Shown here: piece by piece, positions 52,822-64,000 of the stretch
How positions within the stretch are numbered: position 1 is the first letter of the stretch
Layout: every line of letters begins with the position of its first letter
Origin: Roseiflexus sp.
GTDB taxonomy: Bacteria; Chloroflexota; Chloroflexia; Chloroflexales; Roseiflexaceae
NCBI GenBank assembly: GCA_025062325.1
Contig: JANXAL010000015.1
Coordinates: 1-64,000 of the forward strand
Length of the DNA stretch: 64,000 bases
Direction of reading: 5' to 3'
Program-made: the position numbers and the translations under genes
Notes under the pieces: generated by a model
Databases searched by the model: none
What the model saw: only the letters and a program-made list of their open reading frames with translations
What the model was told of the DNA's origin: nothing

Positions 52822-54195
52822 ATGTTCATCCCATTGCAGCACAAAGAAGCCATTTCCTCCGGCGATGCAGAATTATCTCAAGAGCATCGCGCCCGGCGTC
52901 TCCCCAGAGAGCGGCGAGAACCCCGCTTTGGCGACTACAGCGCTGCACTCTTTCGGATAGTTCTGCTACTGATCTGCAGCGTCGAACTGATCCTGTACAA
53001 CGTATCGCACCCGGCTGCACCGATGCTTAGCCTTGCCCTGGCAATCGCTCTCAGTGCGCTGGTCGCCGGGTTGATCTCTGCTGCGCCATGGTGGACGCTC
53101 CTAGTCGCCGACGGTGTTGCAATCGGTGCGCTCGTGCTAGCAACCGGCGGCGCCACAAGCCCAATGCTTGTCCTTGCGCCAGCGCTGGTCATTCAGAGCA
53201 GTTTGTCCGTCGAGGAGCGCGACACGTTTGCCTCCGCTGGCATTGGCGCGCTCATTGTGTTGCTCATCGCTGCGCTCGATCCGGCGCGGACAGGCAACCT
53301 GCTGATCGAAATTGCGGCAGTGCATGTCATCGTAAGCATTGCCGCAGTCTGGGGGGCGCGGCAGGCGCGCCTGGCGCTGACCCGCCTGCACGATGATCTT
53401 GCCCTGCGGACACGCCTGGACCAGGATCGCGACGAGGCGCGACGCGCACTTGAGTGGCAGCGTCAGAACCTTGCGTTACTCAGCGCCTGCGCCTCGCTCG
53501 ATGATCTGACACGGTGCGCTATTGAGCGCGCTGCCGCGATAACCGGTGCGTCAGCATCACTGGAAGATGCGCAGGCGCCTGTCTCCTTCGCCCGGCACAC
53601 GCTCGACATTCCCGGCGTAGGACGTCTGGTTGTGCGTTGCACTCTCGCCGAACTCAGCCGTGCGCAACGCGATGCGCTCGAGCATCTGGCTGCAACCGCG
53701 GCGCAACGCGCCATTGCACTGCAATCCATTGCCATGCTGGAACGTCACCGCCATGCCCTGATGGCGCTGTGGGAAGGCGCCGGGATGCTGCGCGCCGCTC
53801 CTGACCTCAATGCCACGCTGCTGGATGTCTGCCAGCGCATTGCCGCTGCGCTCGATATGGACTGGATGGCGCTGATCGGTCCCGATGAACGCCAGACGCC
53901 CGCGCCACTCCTGATCGCACGCGGGCGCGAGCAGGGTTCATCGCCGCGTCTGCAACCAGCGCACTTCCGCCTGGCTGCTGAAGTGCTGCGCAGCGGACGA
54001 TTGCTCGTGCGCGTTGAGCAAAAGCGGACACTGGCATTCCTGCCGGTGCGCGTGGCAGGCGAACCGTCGCTTGTGCTGGCGGCGCGCGGCGCCGTGGACG
54101 ATGCTGCAGTGCAGGCGCTCCTGCTGTTGCTCGGCGATCTGATCGGCGAACGGTTGATGAGTTGCGCGCCCTCTGAAGAACGACATCACCACTAA
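52822..54195 (+). CDS. Membrane protein with two GAF-like domains
   Basis: 457-aa protein with four to five N-terminal helices (about residues 42-185), a coiled-coil linker rich in Arg/Asp (about 195-220) and two soluble domains with GAF-like layout (about 225-310 and 325-445). No kinase, cyclase or phosphodiesterase motif follows, so it senses or regulates through a partner. The N terminus has many charged residues before the first helix. It is followed 15 nt later by a small membrane protein, so these two may act together. Confidence 0.65.
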   Translation: MFIPLQHKEAISSGDAELSQEHRARRLPRERREPRFGDYSAALFRIVLLLICSVELILYNVSHPAAPMLSLALAIALSALVAGLISAAPWWTLLVADGVAIGALVLATGGATSPMLVLAPALVIQSSLSVEERDTFASAGIGALIVLLIAALDPARTGNLLIEIAAVHVIVSIAAVWGARQARLALTRLHDDLALRTRLDQDRDEARRALEWQRQNLALLSACASLDDLTRCAIERAAAITGASASLEDAQAPVSFARHTLDIPGVGRLVVRCTLAELSRAQRDALEHLAATAAQRAIALQSIAMLERHRHALMALWEGAGMLRAAPDLNATLLDVCQRIAAALDMDWMALIGPDERQTPAPLLIARGREQGSSPRLQPAHFRLAAEVLRSGRLLVRVEQKRTLAFLPVRVAGEPSLVLAARGAVDDAAVQALLLLLGDLIGERLMSCAPSEERHHH

Positions 54196-54210
54196 GCCAT
54201 GGAGTTTTCA

Positions 54211-54528
54211 ATGACCACAACCATCCAGATTGGTATGGCCGTCACTCTGTTCATTACCGGCATCGGCATGCTGATCTGTGGCCTGGTGATCATTATGACG
54301 CGCGAATATCAGGAAGCAATGCGATCGCTGGCGGGGCAATCGTCGCGTCTGAGCAGCAAGGCGCTGGCGGACATCGGCGTTCAGGCGGCGCTCGACGGAG
54401 CGGCGCATCTGCTCGAAGCGATTACCCGTCTGGTGCAGACCGCTGTTGGCATCGGCGCATTTCTCTGTCTGCTGGGCACGATTATCTGCGGGCTGGCGTT
54501 CTGGATGATGATGATGATCAACGCATAA
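54211..54528 (+). CDS. Small two-helix membrane protein
   Basis: 105-aa protein with a helix at each end (about residues 8-30 and 78-103) and a conserved-looking amphipathic middle (SLAGQSSRLSSKALADIGVQAALDGAAHLLEAITRL). The second helix ends in a Met-rich tail. ATG at 54211 has GGAG 6 nt upstream; ATG at 54199 is possible. It lies between the GAF gene and the NACHT-TPR gene with short gaps (15 and 49 nt), suggesting co-transcription. Product not recognised. A membrane effector or anchor role is conceivable. Confidence 0.7.
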   Translation: MTTTIQIGMAVTLFITGIGMLICGLVIIMTREYQEAMRSLAGQSSRLSSKALADIGVQAALDGAAHLLEAITRLVQTAVGIGAFLCLLGTIICGLAFWMMMMINA

Positions 54529-54577: not shown

Positions 54578-57500
54578 ATGGCAGTACAACTCGCTGGTTG
54601 GGTGCATAGGTATCTCGAAGCCCTCTGTGCACAGCCGCATTTTAGCGCCGCGCGGACGGTCGCACCGCTCTGGCTGGCATCCGACGCCGGTCATTCCTCT
54701 GAGACGGGAACGCCAATCTCTGCGCCGATGACTATTCAAATGGCGGCAGAAATCTTTCCGCGCCTGGCGCTGATCGGTCCGGCAGGCGCCGGAAAAACGA
54801 CGACCCTGCGCGCACTGGCGGTTGGTCTAGCAGAGGCGTTCCTTTCCGGCAACAGCCGCATGGTATGGAGCAGCGCCAACGCGCCGCTTCCGCTCTATCT
54901 CGAACTTGCCCGCTTCCAGGGGAGTATTGAAGCGACCCTGACGGCAGCGTTCGGGATCGGAGCGCCACCGCCGCTCGACGAACTGGCACGTGAGCGTCCG
55001 CTCCTCTTCCTGCTTGACGGACTGGACGAACTACCGCCAGCTTCGCAACTGACCAGCCTGGCGGCGCTGAGCCATGCTCTGGCGGCAACCGGCGCTCAGA
55101 CGCGCTGGATCTGCACGTGTCGCAGCGAGCACCTGGGGTTGTTCCGCCCCTGGTTGAACGGCGCCGAGGTGCGCACGTTGCAACCGCTCCGTCCGCGCGA
55201 CGTGATTGCCCAGGTGCAGCGTCAGATTGGCGATGTAGCGGCTGCCTGGGTGCAACGGAATGACGACATTGTTCATCTGGCGACCTGTCCGCGCTGGCTC
55301 GCTGCGCTCATCGAAGCGCGCGACGCGCTGACCGCGCCGATCCAGAGCCGCGGACAGCTCCTGGCGACCTGGATGCCCGCTATTGTAACGGCGGCGCTAA
55401 CGGCGCACCCACGCCAGATCACGGCATCACAGGCGGTGGATGCCCTGATCGATATCGCCCGCCTGCTCGATCAGCAAGGACAAGACAATCTCTCCTTCGA
55501 CAGCGCAATCACCGCTGTCGAAGTCAGCGCCTATGCACCCGACATGCACCTCACCACTGGCACGCTGCGTCAGCCAGCGCCGATACATGGGCAGACCTTG
55601 CGCGCCGCAACCGGCGAAGCCGCGCTGCTGGCGCTCATCGACGCTGGCATTCTCACCTTTGACGCTGAACGACGCACGATTGGCTTTCGACATCCCATAC
55701 TGCGCTCGTTTGCCCAGGCGTTGCTGCTGGCGCGCATCCGACCTGATCAGTGGCCTTCCGCCATTCTGAGCCGCGCCTGGACGGACGCCGTGATCTTCGC
55801 CTACGGCCTGTCCGAGGATCGCAATGCTGTGGTGCGGCGCCTGCTGGCGGCTGGCGCGGTCGGATTGACAGCGCGCTGCCTGATTGATGCCGAGGATCCT
55901 GCCCACTACGATGAGCTGCTTGAGCGGAGCGGCTCGCTGACGCCGCCGTTGCGCGTGATGATCGCCGATGCCTTTGCGGCGGAAGGGCTGGATCGCGCGG
56001 CGCTGGAGCAACTGGAGCGCGCTGGCAACGAAGGGTACGACGAAGCCGGACTCTTCGGGCGCCTGGGCGATCTCTACAGCCGCTCCGGTCAGTGGCGGCT
56101 GGCGCGCGTAGCTTATGAGCAGGCGCTGGCGCGTGAAGCCGATGATCTGCGCTACCGCCAGCAACTCGGCGTTGTGTGCAGCCGAATGGGTGAGCTGGAA
56201 CAGGCGGCGGCGGCGCTGGAAACCGTGCTCGATGCGCAGCAAAAGCGTTCGGCAGCCGCCGCGCACGAACTGGGACACGTCTACCTGCAACAGGGGCGCT
56301 TTGCGCGCGCGCTGGAGGCATATCGCCATGCGGTGCAGCAACAGCCTGGCGAACCAACGTACCGGCGCAGCATGGCAGCCGCGCTGCGCCGCCTGGGACG
56401 CCTTGACGAGGCGGAAGCAGAACTGTGCGATCTGATCGCTGCGTCTGGCGGCGATGCGGCAACGTATGCGGAACTCGGCGAGGTCTACGCCGATGCCAGC
56501 CGCTTCACGGAAGCAGTTGAACGTTATGCCCGCGCTGTTGCGCTCCGCCCCGACGACCCGACCCTGTATGCGCGTCTGGGGCAGTTGCGCCGCAACATCG
56601 GCGATCTGCCAGGGGCGCGGGCTGCGCTGCAACAAGCAGTCGAACTCAATTCCTCAAACGCGGCGCTGCAGGACGAGTTAGGACAGGTGCTCGAAGCGTG
56701 CGGCGAGATGGAGAGCGCGCTGGCGGCATACCGTGCGGCTGTCTCGCTCGATCCGCAGTGCGCCGCGTATCACCGACGCCTGGGAGCGCTCCTGCGCGAT
56801 TGCGGCGACTACGACGGCGCCGCAGCAGCGCTGCGCACTGCGCTCGAGCTGCGACCAGACAGCGCCGAGACCTATAGCGAACTGGCGGAGTTGTTATGGC
56901 GCGCTGGCGCTACCGAACAGGCGCTCGACGCTTACCGTCGCGCATACGCACTCGCTCCGGACTCACCTGATCACGCGCGCGCGCTGGGACTGGCCTACCG
57001 CCGCCTTGGGCGCGCGCGCGACGCCGAGCGCCTGTTGCGCGAGGCGCTGGCGCTGGCGCCGGATCGCGCCGATCTCCATTATGACTATGGCGTGGCTGCC
57101 GAAGCCCTCGAGCAATGGGATACAGCGCTTGCGGCTTACGAACAGGCGGCGGCGCTCGACCCGCAACGCGCCGATTATGCGCGCGCTGCCGGTGCGCTCC
57201 TTCTGCGCCGCGGCGACCTGGCGCGGGCGCGTCGGTTGCTAGCGGCTGCTCTGCGCCGCGCCCGTCGTGATCCTGAAACTCTGTTCCAGGTAGGAATGCT
57301 CCACGCTGCCGCTGGGGACTGGCATCTGGCAGCGCGATCCTTTCAACGCGCCGCACGTTCGAGCGGCAGTGCGCGACACGAAAGCGCACTGGGCAGGGCA
57401 TATCTGCATCTCGGTATGGCGAATGAAGCCTGCACGGCTTTCGAGCGCGCACTTCTCCTGTACCCTGATGACGCTGAAACACTTGAGGCCTATCAATCTG

Positions 57501-60500: not shown

Positions 60501-61363
60501 GCCAGCATCACGACCCGTCGGCTATCGACCATTATGTTGCCGCCGTACAACTCGCGCCCGATGAGCCGCGCCACTGGCTAGGGCTGGTCGAAGGGCTGCT
60601 GGAGCGCAACGAGCACGACGTCGCACAGGAAACCGTCGAACGGGCGCTGCTCAGGTTCAGTGACAACCCCGCGCTGCATGCTGCGGCTGGCGCTATCCAG
60701 GAGGCGCAGGGCGACATCGAGCGTGCAGCATGGCACTACGAGCGCGCCCTCGAGCGTGATCCGCAAAACGCCAGGTACTGCTGGCGACTGGGACGCGCGC
60801 AGCTCGAACTGGGCAACCTGGACGCCGCTCGCGAGTTGCTCGAGCGCGCGCTGGCGCTGGATCCCGGCTCGGCGGACGCACACGCGACCATTGCGCGCCT
60901 CTTCGCACTCGAAAACGATGGCCGCGCTGCTCTAATCCACAGCCAGCGCGCCGCCGAACTGCGCCCCGACGATCCAGCGATCCAGATTCAACTGGCAGAA
61001 GCGCTTGCGCACATGCGACGCTTCGAGGAGGCGCGTCAGGCGCTTGAGCGCGCCTTGCAACGTGCGCCATCCGACCCTGAACTGCTGGCGCGCTACGGCG
61101 AGATGGCATTGACGGTCGGGTTGCACCACGAAGCGTTGAACGCCTTCGAGCGCGCCATCGCGCAGCGCCCTGACGAACCGCGATACCACTTCCTGGCCGG
61201 GCGCGCACATCGCCGGTTGAAACAGTACAGTCGCGCGATCGAACGCTTCCGCCGCGCTGTCAGGCTCCGTCCAGGCTACAGCGAGGCGGTGATTGAACTG
61301 AGCACCCTCGGACCACTGGCGTTCGTGGCGCAGCATTTGCGTGGCGAAAGCGATGCTGCGTAG
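54578..61363 (+). CDS. Giant NACHT (STAND) NTPase with about 50 TPR repeats
   Basis: 2261-aa signalling protein. The N-terminal NACHT NTPase has Walker A GPAGAGKT (67-74) and Walker B LLFLLDGLDELP (D147, with D150-E151 in the second acid cluster), plus the TCRSE sensor-like segment. After a winged-helix-like region (to about 460), residues about 470-2240 are TPR-type helix pairs with the usual A-x-x-(Y/L)-x-x-A-L pattern. No enzyme domain is visible, so the effector must be another protein. ATG at 54578 is preceded by GAGGGA; GTG 54563 is less likely. The next two genes (microprotein and caspase-like protease) share the operon. Confidence 0.9.
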   Translation: MAVQLAGWVHRYLEALCAQPHFSAARTVAPLWLASDAGHSSETGTPISAPMTIQMAAEIFPRLALIGPAGAGKTTTLRALAVGLAEAFLSGNSRMVWSSANAPLPLYLELARFQGSIEATLTAAFGIGAPPPLDELARERPLLFLLDGLDELPPASQLTSLAALSHALAATGAQTRWICTCRSEHLGLFRPWLNGAEVRTLQPLRPRDVIAQVQRQIGDVAAAWVQRNDDIVHLATCPRWLAALIEARDALTAPIQSRGQLLATWMPAIVTAALTAHPRQITASQAVDALIDIARLLDQQGQDNLSFDSAITAVEVSAYAPDMHLTTGTLRQPAPIHGQTLRAATGEAALLALIDAGILTFDAERRTIGFRHPILRSFAQALLLARIRPDQWPSAILSRAWTDAVIFAYGLSEDRNAVVRRLLAAGAVGLTARCLIDAEDPAHYDELLERSGSLTPPLRVMIADAFAAEGLDRAALEQLERAGNEGYDEAGLFGRLGDLYSRSGQWRLARVAYEQALAREADDLRYRQQLGVVCSRMGELEQAAAALETVLDAQQKRSAAAAHELGHVYLQQGRFARALEAYRHAVQQQPGEPTYRRSMAAALRRLGRLDEAEAELCDLIAASGGDAATYAELGEVYADASRFTEAVERYARAVALRPDDPTLYARLGQLRRNIGDLPGARAALQQAVELNSSNAALQDELGQVLEACGEMESALAAYRAAVSLDPQCAAYHRRLGALLRDCGDYDGAAAALRTALELRPDSAETYSELAELLWRAGATEQALDAYRRAYALAPDSPDHARALGLAYRRLGRARDAERLLREALALAPDRADLHYDYGVAAEALEQWDTALAAYEQAAALDPQRADYARAAGALLLRRGDLARARRLLAAALRRARRDPETLFQVGMLHAAAGDWHLAARSFQRAARSSGSARHESALGRAYLHLGMANEACTAFERALLLYPDDAETLEAYQSALEMCGRLEAAYAVGRQVARLAPGNAAIQQRVGSLALRLGRVNEALELLDRAVALDSYLVAAHLERSRALLAAGRAEAALAAAQQACALAPDQAQPMVLAAEALIALRRDDEARPLLEQALALDATLLPACVALRDLLARTGNLAAAVSMAQRVAALAPDDASHHAQLGELFLTTDNPAQAEQSLHHALRLTAGIDKEEQRNWMSARIYALLSRTRARVADWERAIAYARASVEYAPGESEHHALLAEALEGAGDLAAAIAELEIAAAAEPERIDWQQRLGRLLYRTGDYTRALHTLRRAVAGSGAAEDYHALGMCLRALDNLPAAAEALEQALRLRPDAASWRVELGLVHLERGWHGEALAELNQAIATAPDLPDAWRARARAFLAIDQVDNARANLIEALRRNPRDAESYALLAETLIDLGHTSQALESARRAVALHPDNPHYRRALARALRASGQRAEAAEHLSRVISDASPAQWWEELADDHLALGDLPAARAALERAVAAAPDHAAMRFRLGDVLLRLGEPAAAVEQLRVAIARRSDYAAAHARLAEALITKNDGDYGDAAVEAARLAVALEGRCADHWRVLGAVLRAQGALDDAVDALQRAHELDPESAPAAFLLGLTLLEQNNPAAAVAPLAAAVAAAPENAAHHGYLGIAHRSMVAPLVEPDELRAVPTSHRAALTIARRSLQQAITLDPRRARWWYELGLVEQQSANHAPAVEAFERAIALLDNQPASEPACIYPSPADVEQTAILRSRALSLYLIGRLDAARADLEALIARDAALPSDRYLLGRILLDGGDAAAARAELTVAAAGDPSHAPARLFLGCACLALNEPLAAIEAIEQAASLRPDHAPTAAALSQAYAAAGRRERAIAAAQRAVRLDASVGAHHHLLATLYAASGRFQEARAALINALTLQPDVAAWHAEMGDICERMGMIDAARSAYARAVHLAPDQADYRYAQARLLRQQGRIDEARQVFEEALKREPHQGAWHYELAELLRQHHDPSAIDHYVAAVQLAPDEPRHWLGLVEGLLERNEHDVAQETVERALLRFSDNPALHAAAGAIQEAQGDIERAAWHYERALERDPQNARYCWRLGRAQLELGNLDAARELLERALALDPGSADAHATIARLFALENDGRAALIHSQRAAELRPDDPAIQIQLAEALAHMRRFEEARQALERALQRAPSDPELLARYGEMALTVGLHHEALNAFERAIAQRPDEPRYHFLAGRAHRRLKQYSRAIERFRRAVRLRPGYSEAVIELSTLGPLAFVAQHLRGESDAA

Positions 61364-61400
61364 GGAGCAAACATCTCTATCAGACACAAGGAGGCACACG

Positions 61401-61487
61401 ATGGGTCTCGAAACATACGAAGTTCCATTTCCCAACCCGCATCCGCCTGACCCGGAACCCGATCCGCCGCCGGATTGGAACGCATAA
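61401..61487 (+). CDS. 28-residue acidic proline-rich microprotein
   Basis: A tiny frame with an ideal ribosome binding site: AAGGAGG at 61388-61394, six nt before the ATG. It encodes 28 residues with ten prolines, six acidic residues and no Lys or Arg; residues 9-26 read PFPNPHPPDPEPDPPPDW. It lies between the NACHT-TPR gene (38 nt) and the protease gene (48 nt). Not recognised. The strong site and the unusual composition argue for real translation; possible roles are protease substrate, peptide trigger or inhibitor of the neighbours. It is too short for standard gene callers. Confidence 0.6.
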   Translation: MGLETYEVPFPNPHPPDPEPDPPPDWNA

Positions 61488-61534
61488 CACGTTTTGTGCA
61501 TGTCTGACGCACGTTGAAAAGGAAACGTTCCGCT

Positions 61535-64000
61535 ATGACTACTGCCGAGTCGTCGTTGGAGACCGTTGAATTGCCGCATCTGGCGCGCGCCATTGAGCTG
61601 GCGCTGCGGCTGGGGGACGCCGGCGCCGCCTGGCGCGCAGCGCACGCGCTCCGGCGCGTGTTTCCTGAAGCAATCGCCACGCAGGTCTGGCTGGGGCAGG
61701 CGTTGCTCGACGCCGGAAACGCCGCTGTCGCAGTGGACTATTTCCGGCGTGCGCTGCGCCTGAACCCGCTCGATGCCGTTGCCTGGGCAGGGCTGGCGGG
61801 CGCGCTGGCGCGCACCGGGCAGGAGAAGGCGGCGGCCGCGGCGTTGAGTCGCGCGGCGCTGCACGATCCGCTTGGCAGCGCCGCGCTTGCGCCCGGCATC
61901 GCACCCGAACAATCCTCCGCTGGCAGAGGCATCGAATATCTGCGCCGGGGTCTCGCTGAACTGGCGGTTGCTGAGCTTGCGACCGCGCTCGCACGTTTCC
62001 CGCGCCGCGACGATCTGCGCCTGTACTATATCGAAGCATTGCGCCGCAGCGGTGATCCGGCTGGCGCGCGTCTCGCATATGCACAACTCACGTCGCCGGA
62101 CGCCGGTCATCTTCCGGCGCTCCTCGTGCGCGCCGCGCTGCACGAGAACGAGATAGCAGCACGGCAGCGCTGCGCAGCATACGACCCCGACGGTCGCCTG
62201 ACGCGCCGCTTCTTTGCGCCCGAAACTCCTCCCTGGACGCTTCCGCCGCCGCCCGCCGTGCACTGGCACGAGGAGTTTGATCCGATGCTGCCGTATCTGG
62301 AACACCCACCAGCACAGCGGGCATCGACCGAGACCGCCAGCGACTATACCCACGCCACCCGGCCCATGGCAGCGCCAAAACGTTTCCCGGAAACAAGCGT
62401 CCCGCAGCATCCCGCGACGGAAGGCGTCAACGGACAGGAAGCTGCACCACACCCGTCGGTTGCATACGAACGCCACGCCACGCAACCGGAGAGCGCTGCC
62501 GATCCAGAGGTCAAGAACTTCATCGCTACAGCGGAGCGAGTGCGCCAGCGCCTGATCGACGCCAGCGCAGCGCCAAAACCGCTTCTGCCGTATGCCGATA
62601 GCCGGACATTCACCCAGATAGTGCTGTCATCACGCGCGGCATTGCACCAGCGTTTCGGCGCCGACGGGTTTGCAGCGCTGGATCGGCGGTTGCGGCAGTA
62701 CGCGACGGCGTTGCAACGACGTGGCGTGATGGCGCATATCTGCTACTGTGACGACGCAGACTCACTGCGACTTGAGGATGGCGTCGCTACCGCACCCGTT
62801 GCGGCTGAGGCAGGAGCGCTGCGCGATCTGCTGCGCACCCTTTCCGGCGCGCTCGCTGAACGCGGGCGAGCGCTGGGCGCCGCGCTGATCATCGGCGGCG
62901 ACGAGATCGTGCCATTCCACCGTCTGCCCAACCCGCTGCCCGACGATGACATCGTCGTTCTCTCCGACAACCCGTATGCCACCGACGACCCGGCATACAT
63001 CGCGCCGCAACGCATGGTTGCACGCCTTCCCGACGGCAACTCCGGCGATCCATCTCTGCTGTTTGCCCAGCTTGACCGGATGACGGCATACCACTACGGC
63101 AGTCGCCCACAAGCGAACCGATCGCGCCGGTTCTTCGGTCGACGCCGGGCGCACGATGCGCCCGAACTGGACATCTGGAGCGCCGGGTACTGCGCCGAAA
63201 TCTGGAAAGACGTGTCGCGCGCCGTGCTCGACGCGCTCACAGCCGACGCGCCGCTCACCTCAAGCCCGCCGCACCTCGCCGAAACCCTCGATCTGCGCGC
63301 GCTGCACAACCGGCGATTGCTCTACTTCAATCTCCACGGCGCTGCCGGGCTGCCCAACTTCTACGGGCAGCCCGACACCGTCTGGCCCGGCGCGGCGACG
63401 CGCCTGCCGGTGGCGCTGCGCCCCAATCAGGTTGACGCGGATATGGCTGATGGCGTGCTGATCCTGAGCGAAGCATGCTATGGTGCCGAAATCATCGGAC
63501 GCACCGTTGATACCTCCATCCCGCTGCGCGCGCTAGCGCGCGGCGCGCTCGCCGTCGTCGGCGCGACGGTCAACGCCTACGGCAGCCTGAGCGATCCCCT
63601 GATCGGCGCCGACCTCCTGTTCCAGCACATACTGAAGCATCTGGCGCGCGGCGAGCCGATCGGTCGCGCGCTCCACCAGGCGCGGATCGAATTTGCACAG
63701 GAGATGTACCGCCGCCAGGGGTTCCTCGACGATGTGGACATCAAGACGCTGATTGAATTTGTGCTCCTCGGCGATCCGTGGGGCGCACTCTACGATGCCG
63801 ACATCGAACCAAAACCGTGGAACGCCGACCGCACGATCGTGGCGCTGGAGCGGATGCCAAAGCCGCGCGCGTGCGTAGTGCTCGACGAGGCGGAAGCGCC
63901 GCGCGATGCGTTGCAGCGCGCCCGCGCCGTCTTGCGCCGGGTGCTGCCGCACGGCGCTGCGCTGCCGCTGCGCATCACCGCACAGCTCAACCCGCGCCGC
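61535..64000 (+). CDS. TPR plus C25/caspase-like cysteine protease (3' partial)
   Basis: 822 residues are encoded before the window ends, with no stop. Residues about 5-210 are TPR-like helices. From about 440 there is a C25 (gingipain-like) caspase-fold domain. A strand-loop ALIIGGDEIVPF, then SDNPYATDDP and a glycine-rich 'RLPDG' segment precede the catalytic dyad: H601 in YFNLHGAAG and C648 in ILSEACYGAE. LGDPWGALYD closes the fold. Such proteases are effectors of regulated cell death or conflict systems in filamentous bacteria. Start ATG at 61535 with GGAAA upstream. The TPRs suggest direct contact with the NACHT-TPR protein. Confidence 0.82.
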   Translation, partial: MTTAESSLETVELPHLARAIELALRLGDAGAAWRAAHALRRVFPEAIATQVWLGQALLDAGNAAVAVDYFRRALRLNPLDAVAWAGLAGALARTGQEKAAAAALSRAALHDPLGSAALAPGIAPEQSSAGRGIEYLRRGLAELAVAELATALARFPRRDDLRLYYIEALRRSGDPAGARLAYAQLTSPDAGHLPALLVRAALHENEIAARQRCAAYDPDGRLTRRFFAPETPPWTLPPPPAVHWHEEFDPMLPYLEHPPAQRASTETASDYTHATRPMAAPKRFPETSVPQHPATEGVNGQEAAPHPSVAYERHATQPESAADPEVKNFIATAERVRQRLIDASAAPKPLLPYADSRTFTQIVLSSRAALHQRFGADGFAALDRRLRQYATALQRRGVMAHICYCDDADSLRLEDGVATAPVAAEAGALRDLLRTLSGALAERGRALGAALIIGGDEIVPFHRLPNPLPDDDIVVLSDNPYATDDPAYIAPQRMVARLPDGNSGDPSLLFAQLDRMTAYHYGSRPQANRSRRFFGRRRAHDAPELDIWSAGYCAEIWKDVSRAVLDALTADAPLTSSPPHLAETLDLRALHNRRLLYFNLHGAAGLPNFYGQPDTVWPGAATRLPVALRPNQVDADMADGVLILSEACYGAEIIGRTVDTSIPLRALARGALAVVGATVNAYGSLSDPLIGADLLFQHILKHLARGEPIGRALHQARIEFAQEMYRRQGFLDDVDIKTLIEFVLLGDPWGALYDADIEPKPWNADRTIVALERMPKPRACVVLDEAEAPRDALQRARAVLRRVLPHGAALPLRITAQLNPRR

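Follow-up and report, generated by a model that had tools for sequence, protein, structure and literature searches.

Between the gene of a NACHT-TPR protein and that of a TPR protein of the peptidase C25 family, the window (the whole stretch of 64,000 nucleotides of Roseiflexus sp. DNA that was analysed) carries a small gene, the features of which are collected in Table 1. Comparison with related sequences makes it secure, as far as the gene is concerned, that it encodes a real, narrowly distributed and strongly conserved microprotein of the NACHT-TPR/C25 gene pair; for the mechanism of the peptide our confidence is at best moderate. With 87 nt, the open reading frame (ORF) falls under the 90 nt that are the usual minimum of gene callers, and it illustrates that a gene below this length cut-off can outdo its large neighbours in conservation.

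Table 1. Position of the peptide gene, of its signals and of the neighbouring genes in the window
Feature	Position	Strand	Basis or remark
457-aa membrane protein, upstream, same orientation, syntenic	52822..54195	+	Synteny
109-aa DUF7139 small membrane protein, syntenic first gene of the set	54199..54528	+	Pfam DUF7139, E 1.1e-7
NACHT-TPR giant protein, about 2261 aa	54578..61363	+	Pfam NACHT, E 1.6e-8; many TPR families; start by homology
Shine-Dalgarno AAGGAGG, 6-nt spacer to ATG	61388..61394	+	Purine-rich equivalent in all relatives
Peptide gene, 28 aa, MGLETYEVPFPNPHPPDPEPDPPPDWNA	61401..61487	+	Kept ORF; core nearly invariant
Invariant core PFPNPHPPDPEPDPPPDW	61425..61478	+	Identical in G000, G001, G002, G003, G005 and G009
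TPR and peptidase C25-family protein, 868 aa, extends beyond the window end	61535..64000	+	TPRs, family PF01364, motifs

The first-pass annotation, made on the window sequence only, had described the neighbours as a sensor ATPase and a protease. Both assignments stand, the first through the Pfam NACHT match and the second through the family rather than the window copy: PF01364 (Peptidase_C25) recognises 7 of the 21 proteins of the family, at best with E 1.8e-15, whereas the copy in the window lies below the threshold of this model. The catalytic motifs of the family, of the NLHG and SEACYG type, are present, with H-G invariant and C nearly invariant, and a search by sequence gave no PDB match for the C25 domain. 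The genomes with the peptide sequence, free or fused, are that of the window (G000), four others of the same genus (G001, G002, G003 and G005), one of a sister genus (G009) and one of a third genus (G010). In G002 the C25 protein is 99% identical to that of the window, the DUF7139 gene occupies the same place in G001 and G009, and the surroundings of the gene set are syntenic in Roseiflexus and G009.

The ORF runs in the window from an ATG at 61401 to a TAA at 61485-61487; its end had been placed at 61494, i.e. 7 nt too far. The other features listed by the first-pass annotation were found as described: the AAGGAGG and its 6-nt spacing, and a translation, MGLETYEVPFPNPHPPDPEPDPPPDWNA, with 10 Pro, 6 Asp/Glu, no Lys or Arg and a C-terminal DWNA, for a net charge of -6. 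The Shine-Dalgarno is also, as had been claimed, better than those of the two large genes (AAGGA at about 12 nt from the ATG at 61535 downstream; GAGGG close to the ATG at 54578 upstream). A strong Shine-Dalgarno precedes only 3 of the 400 ORFs of the window that begin with ATG and encode 20-40 aa, the peptide ORF included, and it alone among the 400 combines at least 8 Pro and at least 5 Asp/Glu with the lack of Lys and Arg. This composition, which was thought to differ from that of random sequence, indeed does so, being found in none of the ORFs of 40 simulated windows (third-order Markov). A peptide of this kind is expected to be extended and polyproline-II-like, and a globular fold is not expected for about 28 residues.

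In each of G001, G002, G003, G005 and G009, the two large genes likewise enclose this small ORF, complete with an ATG, a Shine-Dalgarno and a stop codon. Loss of frame, start and binding site in related loci had been named as the sign of a spurious gene, and the opposite was found, all three being conserved. Comparison of synonymous and nonsynonymous changes among relatives, which had been suggested as a check, revealed a strong synonymous excess: over a core of 60 nt the lineages show 8-12 differences, every one at codon position 3, with pS of 0.5-0.8 and pN of about 0.02. At similar pS, the pN of the adjoining protease is 0.14-0.21, and the peptide core is thus under far stricter constraint. 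Between G000 and G009, 11 of 12 changes are synonymous (binomial P of about 8e-7 in the absence of selection), and the sole replacement, Glu/Asp, is at the edge of the core. In contrast, the intergenic DNA on both sides of the ORF cannot be aligned between relatives, and in G005 the ORF remains intact in spite of insertions on both sides. The conserved frame, start, Shine-Dalgarno and stop, the synonymous pattern and the unalignable flanks therefore argue that the gene is real. Together with a fusion in G010 described below, they strongly support, short of direct detection of the product, the view of the ORF as a genuine protein-coding gene. Since the sequence is short and strongly conserved one could think of a DNA or RNA element instead, but this is very improbable and we exclude it because of the codon pattern, to which are added the upkeep of start, Shine-Dalgarno and stop, the in-frame fusion and the lack of an Rfam match.

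Two observations on the same region may be mentioned. In G005 (L008 / L103), the upstream insertion is of about 90 nt or more, and the downstream one, of a few hundred nt, contains repeated GGCTTCAGCC-like segments. An antisense ORF of 517 aa (60932-62485, minus strand), which spans the three genes, was considered and rejected: the overlapping frame is open, but it is not conserved, and since it is broken in relatives we regard it as a GC-rich mirror frame of the coding strand.

Searching with an exact degenerate DNA pattern, we found the core motif in 7 of the 158 genomes of the class, in one copy each and always at the same locus, while the reversed control pattern gave no match in these genomes. 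A second pattern, derived from the acidic half of the peptide, pointed to the same locus only in the nine genomes searched. A slightly looser pattern, applied to 84,980 species, matched 54 stretches, of which only those of Roseiflexaceae encode the peptide; the others were rejected as unrelated frames or low-complexity sequences, and viral matches as unrelated to the peptide. The NACHT-TPR/C25 pair extends further: in genera g3 and g8 and in family f2 the pair is present and the core motif absent, and the peptide is therefore not essential to the protein pair. As a separate observation, the operon is missing entirely from a nearly complete Roseiflexus genome and from that of another family member (G004 and G006, both nearly complete), where peptide, C25 gene and NACHT-TPR gene are all absent; the operon is therefore dispensable.

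On one contig of the metagenome-assembled genome (MAG) G010, the peptide ORF reads without a stop, and in frame, into the N-terminus of the TPR-C25 protein (MITATSHPATPFPDPHPPDPGPEPPPWDTTDAVQLRRVIELALRLGD...). The fused gene keeps its own Shine-Dalgarno, AGGAGG before the ATG, and its version of the core is PFPDPHPPDPGPEPPPW. Stop-codon readthrough from peptide into C25 was considered for the free form and rejected, the two frames being different in G000 and G009. In the peptidase tree, the genomes with a free peptide form one clade (100/99); the tree orders neither G010 against g3 and g8, nor fusion against fission. The situation resembles that of 'Rosetta stone' pairs, in which a small subunit is separate in some lineages and joined to its partner in others: Roseiflexus and G009 have a free peptide, whereas in G010 it forms the N-terminal part of the TPR-C25 protein, the difference being that here the subunit has only about 28 residues and no expected globular fold.

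The gene, the selection acting on it, its restriction to one locus and the fusion (on that one contig of one MAG) are established, and from this point on we may only propose. When a short motif exists on its own in one lineage but as a segment of a protein in a second, motif and protein usually act together; the protein concerned is here the TPR-C25 protease, and the operon common to the TPR-C25 and NACHT-TPR proteins links the peptide also to the second partner. The natural fusion thus supports a tie of the peptide to the TPR assembly, and the peptide probably works inside the complex of NACHT-TPR sensor and C25 protease. More precisely, and tentatively, since we give it slightly less than an even chance, we see in it an acidic polyproline subunit, or linear-motif clip, of the pair. 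Made as a small extended proline-rich chain, it would most likely dock in a TPR surface, an option that the first-pass annotation had raised, perhaps in the basic TPRs at the C-terminus of the NACHT-TPR protein; docking would join or regulate sensor and protease. In G010, this segment is held covalently within the protease N-terminus. Binding, docking site and regulatory effect are what we infer here. The candidate dock for an acidic peptide is the pair of TPRs that closes the NACHT-TPR array, both basic and highly conserved: the last 68 residues of this protein are among its most conserved and its most basic (net +6), with identities of 97, 87, 68 and 72% to G003, G009, G007 and G010, respectively. 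This basic C-terminus is conserved also in g3, which is without the peptide. A search of the literature found no mechanism reported for the pairing of a NACHT-TPR sensor with a C25-family protease, and the peptide could offer a short and synthesisable handle on the communication between the two.

A bolder extension of the docking proposal, which we regard as rather unlikely, is that acidic polyproline microproteins of this kind form a new family and serve as an obligatory third component bridging the bacterial NACHT-TPR sensor and C25 peptidase; the segment would stay at the gene junction, and in g3 an acidic tail of the sensor might take its place. The g3 NACHT-TPR proteins (L011 in G007 and L012 in G013) end with an acidic Pro-containing tail of about 37 residues, with DDEPE[DE]PYDPIDERP, the sequence of which is DDEPEDPYDPIDERP. 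It sits exactly at the position of the Roseiflexus peptide gene; we would treat the two as a parallel, homology not being demonstrated.

The strongest rival to a docking role is that of a polyproline-stall leader: translation of PPD and DPPPDW would stall ribosomes in an EF-P-dependent manner and in this way set the expression level of the C25 gene that follows, the peptide being inactive once released. Strong stall contexts are PPP runs as well as prolines that Asp precedes or Trp/Asp follows (PMC4176338), and the peptide contains PPD and DPPPD. Moreover, DPPPD does not vary among the free copies, EPPPW is retained in the fused one, and the gene lies 27-47 nt upstream of the C25 start. We nevertheless consider this explanation unlikely. 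Between peptide ORF and C25 gene there is no terminator-like site or attenuator, the RNA structure is no stronger than that of shuffled sequences (z 0.44), Rfam again gave no match, and the spacer cannot be aligned between genera. Invariance extends past the stall motif into the first half of the core. The G010 fusion, where the peptide forms part of the protease chain, and the large insertion in the G005 spacer weaken the leader reading further.

Another possibility is that the peptide acts on the active site of the C25 protease, which it would occupy as a pseudosubstrate or inhibitor, or by which it would be cut as a substrate. The adjacency of the genes, the propeptide-like position of the natural fusion, N-terminal to the protease, and the retention of the D-W step in all free copies are consistent with it. 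However, the characterised, canonical C25 peptidases cut after Arg or Lys, and the conserved core has neither. Pro follows each of the Asp residues except that preceding Trp, and in G010 the order of D and W is swapped. The first-pass suggestion that the peptide could be cleaved by its neighbour is therefore not supported, and we hold the whole explanation to be improbable.

It is quite improbable that the peptide is set free as a signal or effector once the sensor fires, in the way of the acidic, RxD or FxSxx peptides of the VMAP-ternary systems of actinobacteria. In favour of it, VMAP-ternary systems, too, have a gene for a small peptide together with those of a peptidase and of an NTPase-TPR protein (PMC7159879 section 24), and the VMAP-/FtsH-ternary modules, in which the peptide is sometimes acidic, occur in multicellular-type bacteria (Kaur et al. 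2020, PMC7159879). But the VMAP-ternary precursors diverge fast, a conserved C-terminal peptide being cut off by a metallopeptidase (PMC7159879), whereas here the whole core is invariant, and the peptide has no FxSxx, RxD or four-acidic-residue C-terminal motif. The present set has C25 instead of a zincin and NACHT instead of an AP-ATPase; metallopeptidase, radical-SAM gene and vWA/VMAP partner are all absent from the gene set scanned. Finally, covalent fusion as in G010 fits poorly with a signal that is released, except if a cut frees it.

Two minor observations concern the C25-family proteins themselves. The homologues of genus g12 (L132 and L133; G037 and G055) contain in-frame stops, and may therefore be decaying or recoded copies. 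In the Roseiflexaceae copies, the linker that follows the TPRs, at about residues 235-262, contains a proline motif of its own that is conserved, DPDGxLTRxFFAPExPPWxLPxxPxxxW.
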